Assembly: GCF_021018745.1 (NCBI RefSeq)
Contig: NZ_CP063845.1
Span: forward strand, 930,001 to 994,000
Direction: 5' to 3'
Origin: Gloeobacter morelensis MG652769
Lineage (GTDB): Bacteria; Cyanobacteriota; Cyanobacteriia; Gloeobacterales; Gloeobacteraceae
Length of the DNA stretch: 64,000 bases
Shown here piece by piece: positions 8,156-52,045 of this stretch. A program made the translations under genes and the position numbers. Position 1 is the first letter of the stretch; each line of letters begins with the position of its first letter. The notes beneath the pieces were generated by a model. That model did no database searches and was not told the origin of the DNA. It saw only the letters and a program-made list of their open reading frames with translations.

Positions 8156-9703
8156 GTGGGAGGTAGAGCTGAGAGAGAACGGCGGTGCCGCCCGGTGTGG
8201 TGGTGGGGCTTGGGACTGGCGGCGGTGCTGGGAGTGTGGCCGTCGGCTGCGGGGGCGCGGGTGAACTTCCTGGTCGCCCCGAGTTTTCCTGCCGGGGACT
8301 TTCCCCTGTCGGTGGCGTCAGGAGACCTCGACGGCGACGGCGACCTCGACCTCGCCACTGCCAACAGCAACACAGACACGGTGTCGGTGTTATTAAATTC
8401 TGGCGGCGGCAAGTTCCCCCGCGTCCGCTCCTTCGCAGCCGGGGACGGTCCCTTCTCGGTGGCGTTGGGAGACATAGATGGCGACGGCGACCTCGACCTC
8501 GCCGCGACTAATTTCTACTCTGCCGATGTGTCGGTGTCGCTGAACAACGGCAAGGGCAGCTTCGCCCGCGCCCGCTCCTTTGCGGTCGGGGGCATTCCCG
8601 GCTCTGTGGCGTTGGGGGACATAGACGGCGACGGCGACCTCGACCTAGCCGTCGCCAACACCGGCTTGTATCCCGACTTCATTGGCACCGTGTTCGTGCT
8701 AATAAATGCTGGCGGCGGCACCTTTGCCCCCGATCGTTCCTTTGTAGTCGGGGACGCTCCCCTATCGGTGGCGTCAGGGGACATAGACGGTGACGGCGAC
8801 CTCGACCTCGCCACCGCCAATTTTGGCTCCGACACTGTGTCGGTGCTGCTGAACACCGGCGGTGGCAAATTCGCCCCAGCCCAACCCTTTGCAGTCGGGG
8901 GCGGCCCCGTTTCTGTGGTGTTGGGGGACATAGACGGCGACGGCGACCTCGCCATCGCCATCGCCAATTTTGGCTCCGACACAGTGTCGGTGCTGCTGAA
9001 CACCGGCAATGGCAGCTTCGCTGCCACCCAATCCTTCACGGCCGGGAGAGCTCCCACCTCGGTGGCGTTGGGGGACATAGACGGCGACGGCGACCCCGAC
9101 CTCGCCACTTCCAATTACTCCTCCCGTGCCGTGTCGGTGCTGTTGAATACCGGCGACGGCAGCTTTGCTCCCGCCCAATCTTTCGCAGTCGAGAACCGTC
9201 GTCCCTACTTGGTGGTGTTGGGGGACATAGACAGCGACGGCGACCTCGACATCACCACCGCCAATCGCTACTTCGACGACGTGTCGGTGTTGTTGAACAG
9301 CGGCGGTGGCAGTTTCGGCCCCGCCCAATCCTTTGCAGTCGGGGACGGTCCCTTCTCGGTGGCGTTAGGGGACATAGATGGCGACGGCGACCTCGACCTC
9401 GCCGCGACTAATTTCTATTCTGCCGATGTGTCGGTGTCGCTGAACATCGGCGGCGGCAGCTTTGCCCGCGCCCAATCTTTCGCGACCGGGATCGGTCCCA
9501 AGGCGGTGGTGTTGGGGGACATAGACAGCGACGGCGACCTCGACATCACCACCGCCAACCGCTTTTCCTCCACCGTAACGGTGCTGCGCAACATCACGCC
9601 CAACCCTGCCCCCTGGCCATCGCCGCCCTCCTCCCCCGGTCAGGCCCGAGGCCACCAATTTTCGGGGGCTGCCACTGCATCCGGTTTGCGGGGCGCTTTC
9701 TAA
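8156..9703 (+). CDS. FG-GAP/VCBS repeat protein, exported
   Basis: A 515-residue protein with a signal-like N-terminus: an arginine-rich start, a hydrophobic stretch WWGLGLAAVLGV and an AGA cleavage-like site near residue 34. Nine tandem units of about 50 residues follow, each with a calcium-binding DxDGDGDxD loop, a pattern of FG-GAP beta-propeller blades that bind Ca2+ and often mediate adhesion or sugar binding. Units repeat with a 150-bp period. Two units exactly 900 bp apart (8441-8545 and 9341-9445) differ at only three of 105 positions. The GTG start at 8156 has a good GGAGG-like ribosome site at 8145-8149. The C-terminal 40 residues are proline- and serine-rich with no anchor. Substrate or partner is unknown. 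Confidence 0.88.
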   Translation: MGGRAERERRCRPVWWWGLGLAAVLGVWPSAAGARVNFLVAPSFPAGDFPLSVASGDLDGDGDLDLATANSNTDTVSVLLNSGGGKFPRVRSFAAGDGPFSVALGDIDGDGDLDLAATNFYSADVSVSLNNGKGSFARARSFAVGGIPGSVALGDIDGDGDLDLAVANTGLYPDFIGTVFVLINAGGGTFAPDRSFVVGDAPLSVASGDIDGDGDLDLATANFGSDTVSVLLNTGGGKFAPAQPFAVGGGPVSVVLGDIDGDGDLAIAIANFGSDTVSVLLNTGNGSFAATQSFTAGRAPTSVALGDIDGDGDPDLATSNYSSRAVSVLLNTGDGSFAPAQSFAVENRRPYLVVLGDIDSDGDLDITTANRYFDDVSVLLNSGGGSFGPAQSFAVGDGPFSVALGDIDGDGDLDLAATNFYSADVSVSLNIGGGSFARAQSFATGIGPKAVVLGDIDSDGDLDITTANRFSSTVTVLRNITPNPAPWPSPPSSPGQARGHQFSGAATASGLRGAF

Positions 9704-14404: not shown

Positions 14405-14869
14405 TTAGCTGCCGACGGTTTGCGGGGTCTTGGGTGCTTCGAAGCTCTGGATTTGATCGAGGCGGCGCTGGTGGCGCTCGCCGCCAAATTCGGTGCTCAG
14501 CCAGGTTTCAAGCACATCCTTGGCCACCTCCGGCCCGAGCACCCGACCGCCCATCGCCAGCACATTGGCGTCGTTGTGCTCGCGGCTCATCCGGGCGGTG
14601 TAGTGATCGTGGGCGAGGGCGGCGCGGATGCCGTCAAATTTGTTGGCGGCAATCGAGATGCCGATGCCGGTGCCGCACAACAAGATGCCCCGGTCCGCTT
14701 CGCCGCGCTGAATTTTTTCGGCGACGCTCTGGGCGACTAGCGGGTAGTCGCAGCGCTCGCCGTTGTGGGTGCCCACGTCCTCGAAGGCGTATTCGTGCTC
14801 GCCAAGCCAGGTTTTCAATTCTTCTTTGAGTTCGTAGGCGCCGTGGTCACTGCCGATCACAAGCTTCAT
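14405..14869 (-). CDS. rpiB: Ribose-5-phosphate isomerase B
   Basis: A 154-residue RpiB/LacAB-family enzyme that interconverts ribose 5-phosphate and ribulose 5-phosphate in the pentose phosphate and Calvin cycles. MKLVIGSDHGAYELKEELK is the N-terminal phosphate-binding start, with Asp in GSDHG, and LLCGTGIGISIAANK carries the catalytic Cys and the GTGIG loop; REHNDANVLAMGGRVLG is also diagnostic. Length is normal. The start at 14869 is the family start. It lies divergently from the downstream hydrolase gene. Confidence 0.96.
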   Translation of the reverse strand: MKLVIGSDHGAYELKEELKTWLGEHEYAFEDVGTHNGERCDYPLVAQSVAEKIQRGEADRGILLCGTGIGISIAANKFDGIRAALAHDHYTARMSREHNDANVLAMGGRVLGPEVAKDVLETWLSTEFGGERHQRRLDQIQSFEAPKTPQTVGS

Positions 14870-14996: not shown

Positions 14997-15992
14997 GTGC
15001 AATCCCCTGGCAGCAAATATTTTGAAGTCGGCACCGTCGAGATGCTGCCGCTTGTGGACGCAAGCCGCCACCGCGAGATCCCCCTCAAGATTTTTTATCC
15101 GGCCGCTGCGGGGTCCTTTCCACTCATTCTTTTTTCCCACGGCTCCGGCGGCTCGAAAGATTCCTACGACTATCTGGGGCAGTACTGGGCGCGCCACGGC
15201 TATGTGAGCTTTCACCCCACCCACCACGGCAGCGACACCGCCGTACTCAAAAACGAAGGGTTGCGGGCGATGATGGGCAGCAACGACGACCCGCGCCAGT
15301 GGGTGGACCGGGTGCGGGACATGGGCTTTTTGCTCGACTCGCTCGATCGCATCGGTCTGCAGGTGCCGGCGATCGCAGGCAAGATCGATCAGGGACGCAT
15401 CGCAGCAGGGGGGCACTCCTTTGGCGCCTACACCGCCATTTTGCTCGCCGGGGCGTCGGTGGTCATGCCGACAGGCGAGACCGTGGGCTTTCGCGACCCG
15501 CGCTTTCGGGCGTTTTTGACCATTTCTCCCCAGGGCTCGGGCCTCAACGGCCTGCTACCCAACTCCTGGGTGCACATCGAGTCTCCGGTGATGAGCATCA
15601 CCGGCTCCGAGGACAAGGGCCGCACTGGCCAGTCCGCCGAGTGGCGCCTCGAAGCCTACTACAACATGCCCCCCGGCGATAAGTACTTGATAGTGATCCA
15701 GGGGGCGGGGCACTTCGGTTTTTCCGATCGCAGCATCGAAGGACTGGGCGACGGCGAGGGCGGCCGGGGTGGTCGCTTTGGGGGAATGTTCCGCCGCGGC
15801 GAAGGGGGAGCGATGGCCAGGCGGATGGCCCGCATGCAAATCGACCCCCAGAGCGTCCACCAGTACACCCAAATCGCCAGCCTCGCCTTCTGGGACGCCT
15901 ACCTCAAAGACGACGGCGCTGCCCGCGAGCATCTGGCAAGCGGCGAAATCTTTGCCGACAACGAGCATCTGGTAACGCTGTGGGCAAAGTGA
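14997..15992 (+). CDS. Alpha/beta hydrolase, dienelactone-hydrolase-like
   Basis: A predicted alpha/beta hydrolase of about 331 residues. FPLILFSHGSGGSKDSYDYL is the oxyanion region (HGSGG), AAGGHSFGAYTA holds the nucleophile Ser in GHSFG, and an acid and a late histidine (VIQGAGHFGFSD) complete a probable triad. The insert rich in glycine and arginine (about 250-265) before the last helix is unusual. No signal peptide is visible. The start is uncertain: GTG 14997 fits the family, but an ATG at 14868 and one at 15042 are in frame. The last 39 bases and the downstream stretch are duplicated at 17241-17304. The substrate is unknown. Confidence 0.83.
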   Translation: MQSPGSKYFEVGTVEMLPLVDASRHREIPLKIFYPAAAGSFPLILFSHGSGGSKDSYDYLGQYWARHGYVSFHPTHHGSDTAVLKNEGLRAMMGSNDDPRQWVDRVRDMGFLLDSLDRIGLQVPAIAGKIDQGRIAAGGHSFGAYTAILLAGASVVMPTGETVGFRDPRFRAFLTISPQGSGLNGLLPNSWVHIESPVMSITGSEDKGRTGQSAEWRLEAYYNMPPGDKYLIVIQGAGHFGFSDRSIEGLGDGEGGRGGRFGGMFRRGEGGAMARRMARMQIDPQSVHQYTQIASLAFWDAYLKDDGAAREHLASGEIFADNEHLVTLWAK

Positions 15993-16018
15993 GCGAATAA
16001 ATGCCCTACTTGAAGGCT
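15954..16018. repeat. Direct repeat A, 3' end of hydrolase gene
   Basis: This stretch covers the final codons of the hydrolase and its downstream flank. It recurs at 17241-17304: the first 32 bases are identical and the rest, through CTTGAAGGCT, is mostly conserved. The two copies enclose the glycine-zipper protein gene and the small membrane protein gene. Confidence 0.9.
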
Positions 16019-16188
16019 CTAACTAACTTCGCCCGCCTCAGTGTCGGTCGAGGCCGGGTGCCTTCGAGCCACCAGCCGAAATACCCCTTTTGTGGCAAAG
16101 CACGCCCAATATTTGACAATAAGCATATACTTTAAGGCATTCCGTGGTTCGCCCCAGCCAGGAGTGCACGCCTTCACTGGAGATTGCG

Positions 16189-16944
16189 ATGGACCCTCCC
16201 GATTGGCAGATACAGGCTTCAGAATTTGATAGTGATAACAGTGGTTACGCAAATGAGCGGGTTCAAGAGTGGGAAGATGACAATCCGTTCGACAGCAATC
16301 AGGATTTTGAGAACGGTGTGTTGTCCAGTCATGCAGAGGATTACTCGACAGTAGCGGCTAACGAGAATGCGGAAGATCAGGCCGGATGGGATTTGAGTGA
16401 AAATTCCAGCGCTTTGATGGCTGCCTTGCCAATTGATTCGGTCAGTAGTGATATCGGAGAGGTTTCAGATATCTCGTCTGCAAATGCCTTGGACGGCATG
16501 GCCACTCACCTCGATAAGATAGCCTGGGAGCCGCGCCGGGGCACTCAGCCTAGCTACGAGAAAGTGGAAACCCGCTACAGCTATCCGACGAAGCAAGATT
16601 GCAGGGACCTCTACTGGCAAGAGCAGGCACATCCGACGCCAGCCAAAGAAGAGCGCGACAAAGAGGATAAGGCTGTACTTGAGCAGGTTGCGGTAGACGG
16701 CATAGGTGGTTTCGTTGGCGGTGTTGTGGGTGGCTTTATTGGTGGACCTGTTGGGGCGGGAGCGGGTGGCGTCGTCGGTGCTTTGCTTGCTGAAGAAGGT
16801 AGGCTCAAAGGACAAAGGGAGGAGGAGGCGCGCGACGGCTGCCGCGAAAATGGAAAGCTAGAGCCCTGGATAAAGCCTAACCCGACTTCCGGAGCTTATC
16901 CCGCAGAACAGTACGGGCCGATAGCACCGACACCGAAGGAGTAG
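16189..16944 (+). CDS. Glycine-zipper protein, unknown function
   Basis: A 251-residue protein I do not recognise. The first 130 residues are strongly acidic and rich in Ser, Asn, Asp and Glu, likely disordered. A basic middle part (ETRYSYPTKQDC) leads into a long glycine-zipper membrane helix (about 172-202, GGFVGGVVGGFIGGPVGAGA), then a charged tail ending in prolines. Glycine zippers of this type occur in pore-forming bacteriocins and in membrane-inserting toxins. ATG 16189 is chosen for its GGAG site; the upstream GTG at 16144 has none. The next gene, a small membrane protein, begins two bases after the stop, and both lie between direct repeats and look A+T-richer than the neighbours. A toxin or bacteriocin with its immunity protein is a hypothesis only. 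Confidence 0.75.
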   Translation: MDPPDWQIQASEFDSDNSGYANERVQEWEDDNPFDSNQDFENGVLSSHAEDYSTVAANENAEDQAGWDLSENSSALMAALPIDSVSSDIGEVSDISSANALDGMATHLDKIAWEPRRGTQPSYEKVETRYSYPTKQDCRDLYWQEQAHPTPAKEERDKEDKAVLEQVAVDGIGGFVGGVVGGFIGGPVGAGAGGVVGALLAEEGRLKGQREEEARDGCRENGKLEPWIKPNPTSGAYPAEQYGPIAPTPKE

Positions 16945-16946
16945 AT

Positions 16947-17225
16947 ATGACAGAGCCGACCCTACTTGCTCCTGAATTTATTGCTTGGGGAATTGCATGC
17001 AGTGCTATCGCCACCTGTGCTGAGCAGGTTGCCCGCAGTCAAGAAGGACAAGGCTGGAATAAGCAGGTGGTGATCGTCGCCACTATCGTTGTTCTCATCG
17101 CTGGGGTCTTCGCAGCAGGTATCAATCCTGTCGGGACTGCCATTTGCTTGGTGGGGCTGGTTGCCGCCATAACGCTTTTTTGGCCGCTTTACAGAGTAAT
17201 GTGGCGGCTACGAAACGGAAAGTAG
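16947..17225 (+). CDS. Small membrane protein, possible immunity partner
   Basis: A 92-residue integral membrane protein. It has an N-terminal moderately hydrophobic helix (FIAWGIACSAIATCAEQ), then two strong transmembrane segments: VVIVATIVVLIAGVFAAGI and TAICLVGLVAAITLFWPLY, ending in basic residues. An AAGGAG ribosome site sits inside the previous gene's end, six bases before the ATG, so the two genes are co-translated. I do not recognise a family. The size, topology and position directly after a glycine-zipper protein resemble immunity proteins of pore-forming bacteriocins, but no other evidence supports that. Confidence 0.7.
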   Translation: MTEPTLLAPEFIAWGIACSAIATCAEQVARSQEGQGWNKQVVIVATIVVLIAGVFAAGINPVGTAICLVGLVAAITLFWPLYRVMWRLRNGK

Positions 17226-17240
17226 CGCCGGAAAATTTAT

Positions 17241-17304
17241 GCCGACAACGAGCATCTGGTAACGCTGTGGGCGAAGTGAACGAATCAAGCTCCACTTGAA
17301 GGCT
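17241..17304. repeat. Direct repeat B, copy of hydrolase 3' end
   Basis: A copy of 15954-16018, starting GCCGACAACGAGCATCTG and still spelling the last residues and stop of the hydrolase, but with no gene in front of it. It marks the right edge of the two-gene cassette. Confidence 0.9.
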
Positions 17305-17335
17305 GGGACTACTGCTACCGTCAGGAGGTCTAGTG

Positions 17336-17369
17336 AAAAAAAAGCCCCTTCCTGAAGGCAGGAAGGGGC
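17336..17369 (-). terminator. Rho-independent terminator of clpC
   Basis: GCCCCTTCCT (17344-17353) pairs perfectly with AGGAAGGGGC (17360-17369) around a six-base loop. Read on the minus strand it is followed by a run of eight T (A run at 17336-17343), just beyond the clpC stop. Confidence 0.93.
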
Positions 17370-17393
17370 CATTCCAGTGATTGGGAAACTTGC

Positions 17394-19730
17394 CTAACGG
17401 GCGCTGACGGCCATCTCCGCCTTGGCGTCGGCCGGATCCGGGTAGAGGAAGATTACCTTGCCGTTGGCATCGACATCTGCCAGATAGCGCTCACCGCTCA
17501 CCAGCTGCCCGAGCAGGACGGCGTCGGCGACAGAATCCTCCAGCAGGCGCTGTACGGCGCGGCGCAAAGGACGGGCACCCCAGGCCGGGGAGTAGCCCTC
17601 GGCGATGAGCTTGTCGATGAAGGCAGGACTCGCCTCCAGTTCGATGCCCAGTTCGCGCACCCGAGCAAGCGATTCGTCCAGAAGCAGCCGGGCCACCTGG
17701 CCCAGTTCCTCGCGGCCCAGCGGCTGGAAGACGATCACCTCGTCGAGGCGGTTGAGAAACTCGGGGCGGAAGACCGGCTTGAGTTCTTCTTGCACCCGGT
17801 CGCGGATGGCGGCGTAGCGCCGCTCGCCCTCGCTGCCGGTGGTGTTGAACCCGAGTCCGCCGCCGCCGCGCTCGATGACCCGCGAACCGAGGTTGCTGGT
17901 CATGATGATGAGCGCGTTCTTGAAGCTCACGGTGCGGCCCTTGGCGTCGGTGAGCCGACCGTCGTCGAGCAGTTGCAGCAGGGTATTGAACACATCCGGG
18001 TGGGCCTTCTCGATTTCATCGAGCAGGATCACCGTGTAGGGCCGACGGCGCACCGCCTCGGTGAGTTGGCCGCCCTCGTCGTAGCCCACGTAGCCGGGGG
18101 GCGAGCCGATCAGCTTGCTCACCGTGTAGGACTCCATAAATTCGGACATGTCGAGGCGGATCATCGCGTCTTCGGAGCCGAAGACCGTGGCCGCGAGCGC
18201 CTTGGCCAGTTCGGTCTTGCCGACGCCGGTGGGGCCGGCGAAGATGAAGCTCGCCAGCGGACGCTCGGGAGACTTCATGCCGGCGCGCGCCCGGCGAACC
18301 GCTCTGGCCACCGCACTCACCGCGGGGCGCTGGCCGATGATGCGCTCGTGCAGACGCGCTTCGAGGTGCACCAGGCTGGTGGCCTCTTCGCCCGTGAGCT
18401 TGCCCACCGGGATGTTCGTCCACTCCGAGAGCACCTGGGCGATCGCTTCGCTATCGACAATGGCGGGCAACTCGGCGCCCCGGGCAAGTTTCACCCGGAT
18501 CATCGAACCGGCCTCGTCGATCAGATCGATGGCTTTGTCCGGCAAGAAGCGATCGGCGATGTAGCGATCCGCCAGGTGCACCGCCGCTTCGAGGGCGGCG
18601 TCGGTGTAGCGCAGCTTGTGGTGCTCCTCGTAGCGCCCCTTGAGGCCCTGTAGGATGGCAATCGCCTCATCCACGCTCGGTTCACCCACCGTCACCGGCT
18701 GGAAGCGGCGCTCCAGGGCGGCGTCGCGCTCGATGTGCTTGCGGTACTCATCGAGGGTGGTCGCCCCGATGCACTGCAGTTCGCCGCGCGCCAGGGCGGG
18801 CTTGAGGATGTTGGCGGCGTCCATGCCGCCCTCGCTCGCCCCGGCTCCCACCAGGGTGTGCAGTTCGTCGATGAACAGAATAATCTGCCCCTTGGAGGCG
18901 ATCACTTCCTGCATGACGCCCTTGAGGCGCTCCTCGAATTCGCCGCGCATCTGGGTGCCGGCCAGAACCTGGCCCATGTCCAGGCTCACGATGCGCCGAT
19001 CGAAAAGCATCTCGGGCACGTCGCCCTCGGCGATGCGCACGGCGAGGCCCTCGGCGATGGCGGTCTTGCCGACGCCCGGTTCGCCGATGAGCACGGGGTT
19101 GTTCTTGGTACGACGACCCAGAATCTGGATCACCCGCTCGATCTGCTCGGCCCGCCCCACGACCGGATCGATTTTGCCGCCACGGGCCAGTTCGGTCAGA
19201 TCCCGACCAAAGCGTTCGAGCGGTCCGCCGCTGCGGGAAGCTCTGCCGCCGCGGCGCGGCTGCTCGTTGCCGCGCGAAGCGGCGGTCGCTTTGGCCGCAT
19301 TCCCCAGGCTTTCAAGCAGCATCTGGCGGGCCTTGTCGCGGTCGAGGCCGCATTCATCGAGCACGCGGCTTGCCACCCCTTCGTTGTCGCGCAGCATGCT
19401 CAAAAGCAAGTGCTCCGGTTCGACCAGGCGCTGGCCGAAGCCGTTGGCCTCGATGAGCGCCTGCTCGATAAGCCGCCCCGCCCGGGGGGTAAAGGCGACG
19501 CGCTGGCTCGGACGGCTCTCACCTTTGCCCACGATGCTCTCCACCTCGCGGCGGGCACCGGCAAGGCTGAGGCCCAGCTCGGTCAGTACCTGGGCGGCGA
19601 CGGCGTCGGAATGGGCCAACAGTCCAAGCAGAATCTGCTCGGTGCCGACGGCGTTCTGGCCGAGGCGCAATGACTCCTGCTTGGCCAGGTTGAGCACCTG
19701 GAGAGCCGACGGGCTGAATTGCTCAAACAT
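17394..19730 (-). CDS. clpC: ClpC-type AAA+ unfoldase lacking the M domain
   Basis: A 778-residue class I Hsp100 ATPase. Two Clp N repeats (1-150) precede AAA1 with [13 protein letters not shown] and AAA2 with [25 protein letters not shown] is the substrate-gripping pore loop. It can supply unfolded substrates to ClpP. In canonical ClpC the segment between AAA1 and AAA2 carries a coiled M domain with a UVR motif of about 40 more residues; here [14 protein letters not shown] runs almost directly into [13 protein letters not shown]. The C-terminal ClpP-binding tripeptide could not be identified with certainty. It lies 62 bp downstream of a TetR gene on the same strand and ends at a strong terminator. 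Cyanobacteria usually have a second ClpC with the M domain. Confidence 0.9.
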
Positions 19731-51460: not shown

Positions 51461-52045
51461 ATGTCCAACTTCTTTAAAGACTTCATGAACGTGGAGAGTT
51501 TCATCTACAGCACGTGGATGAACCTGTTCGGCGGGGCGTTTTCCCGGCTGACCCGTCCCCAGTCCGGTGCCAGTTCGGTGGTGCCTGGCGTAGCGGCCCC
51601 CCCGCGCCCCGGTATGCGCCCGCCGCAGCGCCCCGGTGCCCCCGCTCCCCAGCGCCCCGGCGTCCCGCCTGCCCAGGGAGCCGCGCCGCAGCGCCCCGGT
51701 GCCCCCGCTCCCCAGCGCCCCGCGGCGGGTGCCCCCGGCCCGCGCCCGCCCGCTGCTCCCCAGCGCCCGGGGATGCCCCCCGGCATGCCCGCCCCCAACC
51801 CGAACCGGCAGTTGGACAAATCCGCCCAGGGGGCGCAGCTGTTCGGCATGAACATCAACAATTTGCCCCAGATCCCCGGCCTCAACGCACCGCCCAGCGG
51901 CAAGGGCAACGCTGCGCAGACCCGCGCCGAACAAGAAATTTATTTGCTCAAGGCGCGCGGCATGAACTTTGTTTCCCAGGGCGTCCACCGCTCCTTCAGT
52001 CAGATGTACACCAACTTGCGAAGCTTCTTCGAAAGAAGGGCGTGA
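51461..52045 (+). CDS. Proline-rich small CIS-locus protein
   Basis: A 194-residue protein with a hydrophobic amphipathic N-terminus (FIYSTWMNLFGGAFSR), a long low-complexity middle of repeated PQRPG/APAPQRPG units (about residues 45-115) and a conserved-looking C-terminus (MNINNLPQIPGLNA and GMNFVSQGVHRSFSQMYTNL). No family recognised. The ATG 51461 follows GGGAGCGA. It may be a flexible linker or tether. The coding repeats at 51600-51780 can recombine and change the linker length. Confidence 0.75.
   Translation: MSNFFKDFMNVESFIYSTWMNLFGGAFSRLTRPQSGASSVVPGVAAPPRPGMRPPQRPGAPAPQRPGVPPAQGAAPQRPGAPAPQRPAAGAPGPRPPAAPQRPGMPPGMPAPNPNRQLDKSAQGAQLFGMNINNLPQIPGLNAPPSGKGNAAQTRAEQEIYLLKARGMNFVSQGVHRSFSQMYTNLRSFFERRA

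Follow-up and report, generated by a model that had tools for sequence, protein, structure and literature searches.

The segment between an alpha/beta hydrolase gene and clpC that is described here is probably a polymorphic toxin-/immunity-like cassette restricted to the genus Gloeobacter, which would have been inserted with a duplication of approximately 80 bp of its target and not by a dedicated integrase. It lies in the window, i.e. the whole stretch of 64,000 nucleotides that was analysed (C1:930001-994000 of genome G000, 5.1 Mb in three contigs). The comparison within the genus comprised four genomes, namely G000, which is the window's own, and G001, G002 and G003.

The upstream neighbour of the segment is a PAF-AH/chlorophyllase-like alpha/beta hydrolase gene on the plus strand (14998..15992), whose start is inferred at the GTG at 14998, the longest open reading frame beginning at 14868. 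The 3' end of this gene is duplicated. The resulting direct repeat aligns 15946-16025 with 17233-17311 at 86% identity over 80 columns (E 3e-17), and a gapped alignment stretches it to 15939..16025 and 17224..17311, both on the plus strand, with a score of 57, whereas none of 100 shuffles scored above 18. The original prediction had described a direct repeat of 64-65 bp; such a repeat is indeed present, its size being nearer to 80 bp. As also predicted, the left copy contains the true end of the hydrolase gene with its stop codon (TGA 15990-15992), followed by about 30 bp beyond it. The right copy represents the same hydrolase end without the gene; it starts where the second cassette gene has its stop codon, and its right half passes into sequence that G002 has conserved next to clpC. 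Outside three repeat-rich stretches, the whole window has no other pair of this kind. Other internal repeats in the window are located at 8275-9593 (358 bp, 80%) and at 51621-51722 (an exact 39-bp repeat with a spacing of 63 bp).

Between the two copies the only open reading frames are those at 16189-16944 and 16947-17225, so that the repeat flanks a glycine-zipper gene and a gene for a small membrane protein, and the list of open reading frames contains neither an integrase nor a transposase there, in agreement with the original prediction that an integrase is absent. A leader of about 160 bp (16026..16188, plus strand) precedes the two genes and carries a TTGACA hexamer near 16114; a full sigma-70 match was not found in it. 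The first gene (16189..16944, plus strand) encodes a toxin-like Gly-zipper protein of 251 amino acids, recognised from its reading frame, Pfam, the family alignment and a structural model. It consists of an acidic, unstructured N-terminus (residues 1 to about 128), Cys138, a Gly-zipper helical hairpin (about 151-221) and Cys218. Pfam gave a weak match to PF13488 at residues 171-200 (E 0.005, under the curated cut-off), and the AlphaFold model, of low confidence (mean pLDDT 50), likewise shows an N-terminus without structure and, at the C-terminus, a helical hairpin. After 2 bp follows the immunity-like partner (16947..17225, plus strand), a membrane protein of 92 amino acids that is modelled as three helices (9-32, 39-59 and 61-90; mean pLDDT 85), for which a fold search against the PDB returned no significant match. 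Searches of the pair against Pfam, NCBIfam, PADLOC and PHROGs yielded nothing beyond weak Gly-zipper or chance matches, and neither a signal peptide nor, between the hydrolase gene and clpC, a secretion gene was identified for it. On the right, the convergent gene clpC, encoding a Clp ATPase (17394..19730, minus strand; reading frame and relatives), is accompanied by its terminator-like hairpin (17343..17370, minus strand).

Relatives of both proteins stand side by side at several other places in the genus. Gly-zipper genes occur at five places in G000, three in G001 and two in G003, and downstream of each there are one to three genes for small membrane proteins. In G000, relatives of both proteins are found at 773, 1734-1736 (two units), 3447 and 245 kb, in G001 at 1205, 1237 and 2214 kb and in G003 at 1884 and 921 kb; G002 and other genera of the order yielded no family pair. 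The Gly-zipper proteins of this family have 251-657 amino acids and an acidic N-terminus with 18-24% D/E and 1-5% K/R. Two invariant cysteines (C138 and C218) flank the zipper, invariant glycines are present in the 11 members, and a small hydrophobic protein is encoded downstream of the Gly-zipper gene in all members. Outside the genus, the matches of a phylum-wide profile search were for the most part generic Gly zippers (best E 1.8e-12), and no relatives were found in plasmids and phages. Judged by these searches, the multi-copy family appears to be confidently recognisable only in this genus. Two further features were observed at individual members. A transposase-like gene lies directly upstream of the 921-kb cassette of G003 (G003:C1 about 919913-920968; L056:414-1469), and the leader of the 3447-kb cassette contains 119 bp (G000:C1:3446531-3446649) that form a short dispersed repeat, also found beside unrelated genes in G002 (C53) and G003 (4125825).

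The two proteins are likely a toxin and its immunity protein, a reading drawn from sequence comparison. The cobQ site of G000 holds a tandem of two cassettes, with 86% identity across the repeat, the leader and the N-terminal part of the coding region. They then diverge through the zipper region and the first partner gene, and a 97% identical copy of the partner of cassette 1 is retained after cassette 2's own partner. A conserved N-terminus, a C-terminal tip exchanged together with its partner and a displaced partner that is kept were thus all encountered at one locus only, cobQ; the same exchange of tips with a retained orphan immunity gene is seen in polymorphic toxin-immunity loci. The one to three partner genes per unit also fit a toxin-tip exchange with a retained immunity gene. 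The co-divergence of Gly-zipper tip and partner was significant when the orthologous pair was included (r 0.71, p 0.0065) but weak and not significant when this pair was removed (r 0.27, p 0.11). The putative content, predicted to be a pore-forming bacteriocin with its immunity protein, is supported indirectly as to its type, via the exchange of tip and partner at cobQ. The Gly-zipper protein would attack competing cells by inserting into their membranes, and its small partner would confer protection.

Two known systems invite comparison. The Cdz bacteriocins of Caulobacter (CdzC/CdzD/CdzI) combine a Gly-zipper protein with a small immunity protein of three transmembrane segments; CdzC and CdzD have 84-86 amino acids and RTX-like signals, and a type I exporter is encoded next to them (PMC5380434). 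The window pair likewise consists of a Gly-zipper protein and a small membrane protein with three predicted helices, and the Gly-zipper motif of the Cdz effectors is recognisable in the weak PF13488 match and the invariant glycine positions of the 11 members. However, the Gloeobacter family has a single protein of 251-657 amino acids whose N-terminus is long and acidic; an exporter gene is missing between the repeats, and cdzAB-type type I secretion genes are absent between the hydrolase gene and clpC. The ionophore toxins of contact-dependent inhibition (CDI) carry polymorphic, membrane-acting C-terminal tips with a putative Gly zipper in highly polymorphic pairs, and their CdiI immunity proteins are very hydrophobic two-helix hairpins of 72-100 amino acids (PMC11630599). 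Here the resemblance is in the toxin-like C-terminal Gly zipper, the small hydrophobic partner and the strong polymorphism from pair to pair, but the window protein lacks the CdiA adhesin and a VENN motif, and its partner is modelled with three helices and not with the two of CdiI. No CdiA domains were found in the 251-residue protein, the N-terminus of which is acidic and unstructured. By these features the pair resembles Cdz and CDI in its logic and belongs to neither.

The orthologues of the hydrolase in G002 and G003 share 97% and 92% identity with it, and in both cases the similarity ends at the stop codon. Both genomes lack the pair at this place and possess the hydrolase gene once. In G003, clpC is located 137 kb from the hydrolase gene in opposite orientation, as expected for one inversion with a breakpoint at the hydrolase-clpC junction. 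In G002, the hydrolase end is on one contig and clpC on another, where the part of copy 2 from window position 17278 onward, its right half, flanks clpC. Since the hydrolase-clpC junction is rearranged in both relatives, the empty site has to be inferred from two halves, and an intact one was found at this locus in neither G002 nor G003. The flank of clpC in G002 together with the single inversion in G003 suggests that the ancestral order was probably hydrolase-spacer-clpC. Moreover, both repeat copies in the window read GTAACG, where G002 has GTATCG and G003 has GTCTCG, so that, judged from a single base, the duplication appears to have arisen after the lineage had separated from that of G002. 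On the G002 contig C62 (L044:180-232), the hydrolase end runs directly into an inverted copy of itself of about 24 bp, which forms a palindrome over the stop codon, and unrelated sequence comes next. The junction (window 15990-17340) is broken in both relatives, and the synteny of G003 also breaks exactly at the site of the tetR cassette. The breakpoints at hydrolase-clpC and tetR may have been reused.

Clean single-copy empty sites exist elsewhere. The cassette at the tetR site (L047) is flanked by a repeat of 58 bp (88%), and G002 has one repeat copy there, the flanks overlapping by 57 bp (C29:54648-54704). The repeat at the cobQ site has 75 bp (87%; G003 orthologue 84%), and again G002 carries one copy with an overlap of 66 bp (C85:1686-1751). 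With the absence of the pair from both relatives, these sites support the predicted insertion, by which the host gene stays whole and its end is repeated beyond the insert. A fourth site (G000:C1:3724226-3725190; L203:4226-5190), at the 5' end of a DUF218 gene, holds another cargo, an aspartic-protease-like gene and a small open reading frame between 82-bp repeats (89%); G002 has a single copy with an 80-bp overlap, and G003 retains the 3' end of that cargo. Since G003 shares the cobQ cassette and keeps this cargo end, the absence of both inserts from G002 could be a precise loss between the repeats and not the original state.

Long duplications are not a general feature of insertions in these genomes. 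Approximately 125 kb of aligned sequence of G000 and G002 contain some 17 insertion-type differences, and overlaps of 57-80 bp were observed only at the three sites already known. The other roughly 13 insertions show an overlap of 7 bp or less or a small gap, and with none of these unselected cases overlapping by at least 30 bp, long duplication as a general insertion rule was rejected. It accompanies two of the three cassette sites with resolvable empty sites compared to 0/13 of the others (Fisher p 0.025, with small numbers). Since the long overlaps are confined to three known sites, long duplication is a property of certain insertions. Within the family, the 3447-kb cassette has no duplication and replaced about 40-53 bp, and flanking repeats were not found at six family cassettes. 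A scan for repeats in 864 kb and then in a further 380 kb detected few other pairs, including repeat-bearing genes and a CRISPR-like array at G000:C1:3684219-3687376 (L201:4219-7376) with the repeat GTTTCCAACTAATCGCTCCCGCACTGAAGAGCGCAC.

A compact cassette composed of a promoter, a toxin-like gene and an immunity-like gene would thus have entered between the hydrolase gene and clpC. In this event about 80 bp of the target, i.e. the 3' end of the hydrolase gene and the adjacent spacer, would have been duplicated, and since the duplication covers this 3' end, the hydrolase would have stayed intact. We infer that the duplication was made at insertion without a dedicated integrase, either by a widely staggered break that was repaired or filled around captured DNA, or by a single crossover with a small circle. 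No Ku homologue was found in the genus, which makes Ku-type end joining an unlikely repair route. Survivorship may contribute as well, as between direct repeats only those insertions would persist that spare the neighbour and whose cargo is costly to lose.

A more specific version of the second route is a Campbell-type integration of a small circle that carried the cassette and a short homologous segment from another strain. It accounts for the intact gene with a partial copy, the variable repeat length and the divergent inner tails, but it requires efficient recombination over 57-80 bp. Since both window copies have the lineage-specific base, no foreign donor is needed, and we consider this origin unlikely. 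It is rather doubtful, too, that an undescribed process acting in trans places toxin-immunity-type cassettes at gene borders with neighbour-preserving target duplications of 57-82 bp. Nevertheless, since a like cassette stands between copies of 57-75 bases at two unrelated sites, an insertion process that does without an integrase gene of its own is worth seeking.

The original prediction had likened the arrangement to the work of site-specific integrases. A tyrosine or serine integrase, since lost or acting in trans, could have used the 3' end of the gene, the repeats then being attL and attR. Integrative elements likewise leave the host gene whole, as it is here, with a copy of the gene end on the far side, and at cobQ the left copy ends differently but is still coding, and the right copy is near the ancestral end, as in integrated elements. 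However, a comparison of the repeats of the four sites on both strands gave no shared motif that exceeded shuffled controls; the repeats fold differently, without a common hairpin, and the cassette ends are unrelated and free of terminal inverted repeats. A common integrase att site is unlikely for this reason. Furthermore, the cassettes encode no integrase, two of the sites are not gene 3' ends but an upstream region and a gene 5' end, and the window cassette differs from integrative elements in its cargo of about 1.2 kb and its unrelated targets. Att sites of the integrase type thus find no backing, and we regard this origin as improbable.

Still less probable is the relic of a tandem duplication that the original prediction had named as an alternative, in which a second hydrolase copy decayed and two genes settled between the copies. 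Such histories do occur here. At the PTPS site (G000:C1:381112-383932; L188:1112-3932) about 520 bp of a gene end are duplicated, with an internal deletion, beyond a two-gene cassette for a 317-residue protein and a small membrane protein. Since G003 has part of this duplicated end without the cassette, the PTPS site may be a tandem duplication. In contrast, no second hydrolase copy was found near the window locus in any of the four genomes, although a full second copy in relatives had been named as the sign of such an origin, and at tetR and cobQ a relative has exactly one copy with contiguous flanks. The closest hydrolase paralogue in G000 is only 41% identical and 1.8 Mb away, and since the close relatives without the pair carry the gene once, a decayed second hydrolase is unsupported.

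We attach equally little probability to a non-autonomous transposition in which the transposase leaves long target duplications of variable length. Elements of the IS1549/IS1634 kind give direct repeats of 8-514 bp (PMC2266710), comparable to the long repeats of variable length at the targets of the Gloeobacter cassettes, and the transposase-like gene beside one G003 cassette (L056) would fit. However, the Gloeobacter cassette has neither a transposase nor inverted-repeat ends, and the four sites show no terminal inverted repeats or shared ends. An integron cassette with attC is not supported, as the repeats of the sister sites are target sequence, single in the empty relative, with no consistent hairpin. 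Taken together, unrelated repeats, folds and ends and the lack of an integrase argue against an integrase with one att site, an integron attC and a transposon with fixed ends.

The preferred reading, an insertion with target duplication and without a dedicated integrase, means that in Gloeobacter small cassettes can insert at unrelated sites and thereby duplicate a long piece of the target, the empty sites being preserved in a sequenced relative. It also draws attention to a multi-copy family of toxin/immunity-like gene pairs in this genus that had no name before. An addictive cargo of this kind could explain why easily excised, repeat-flanked inserts persist.
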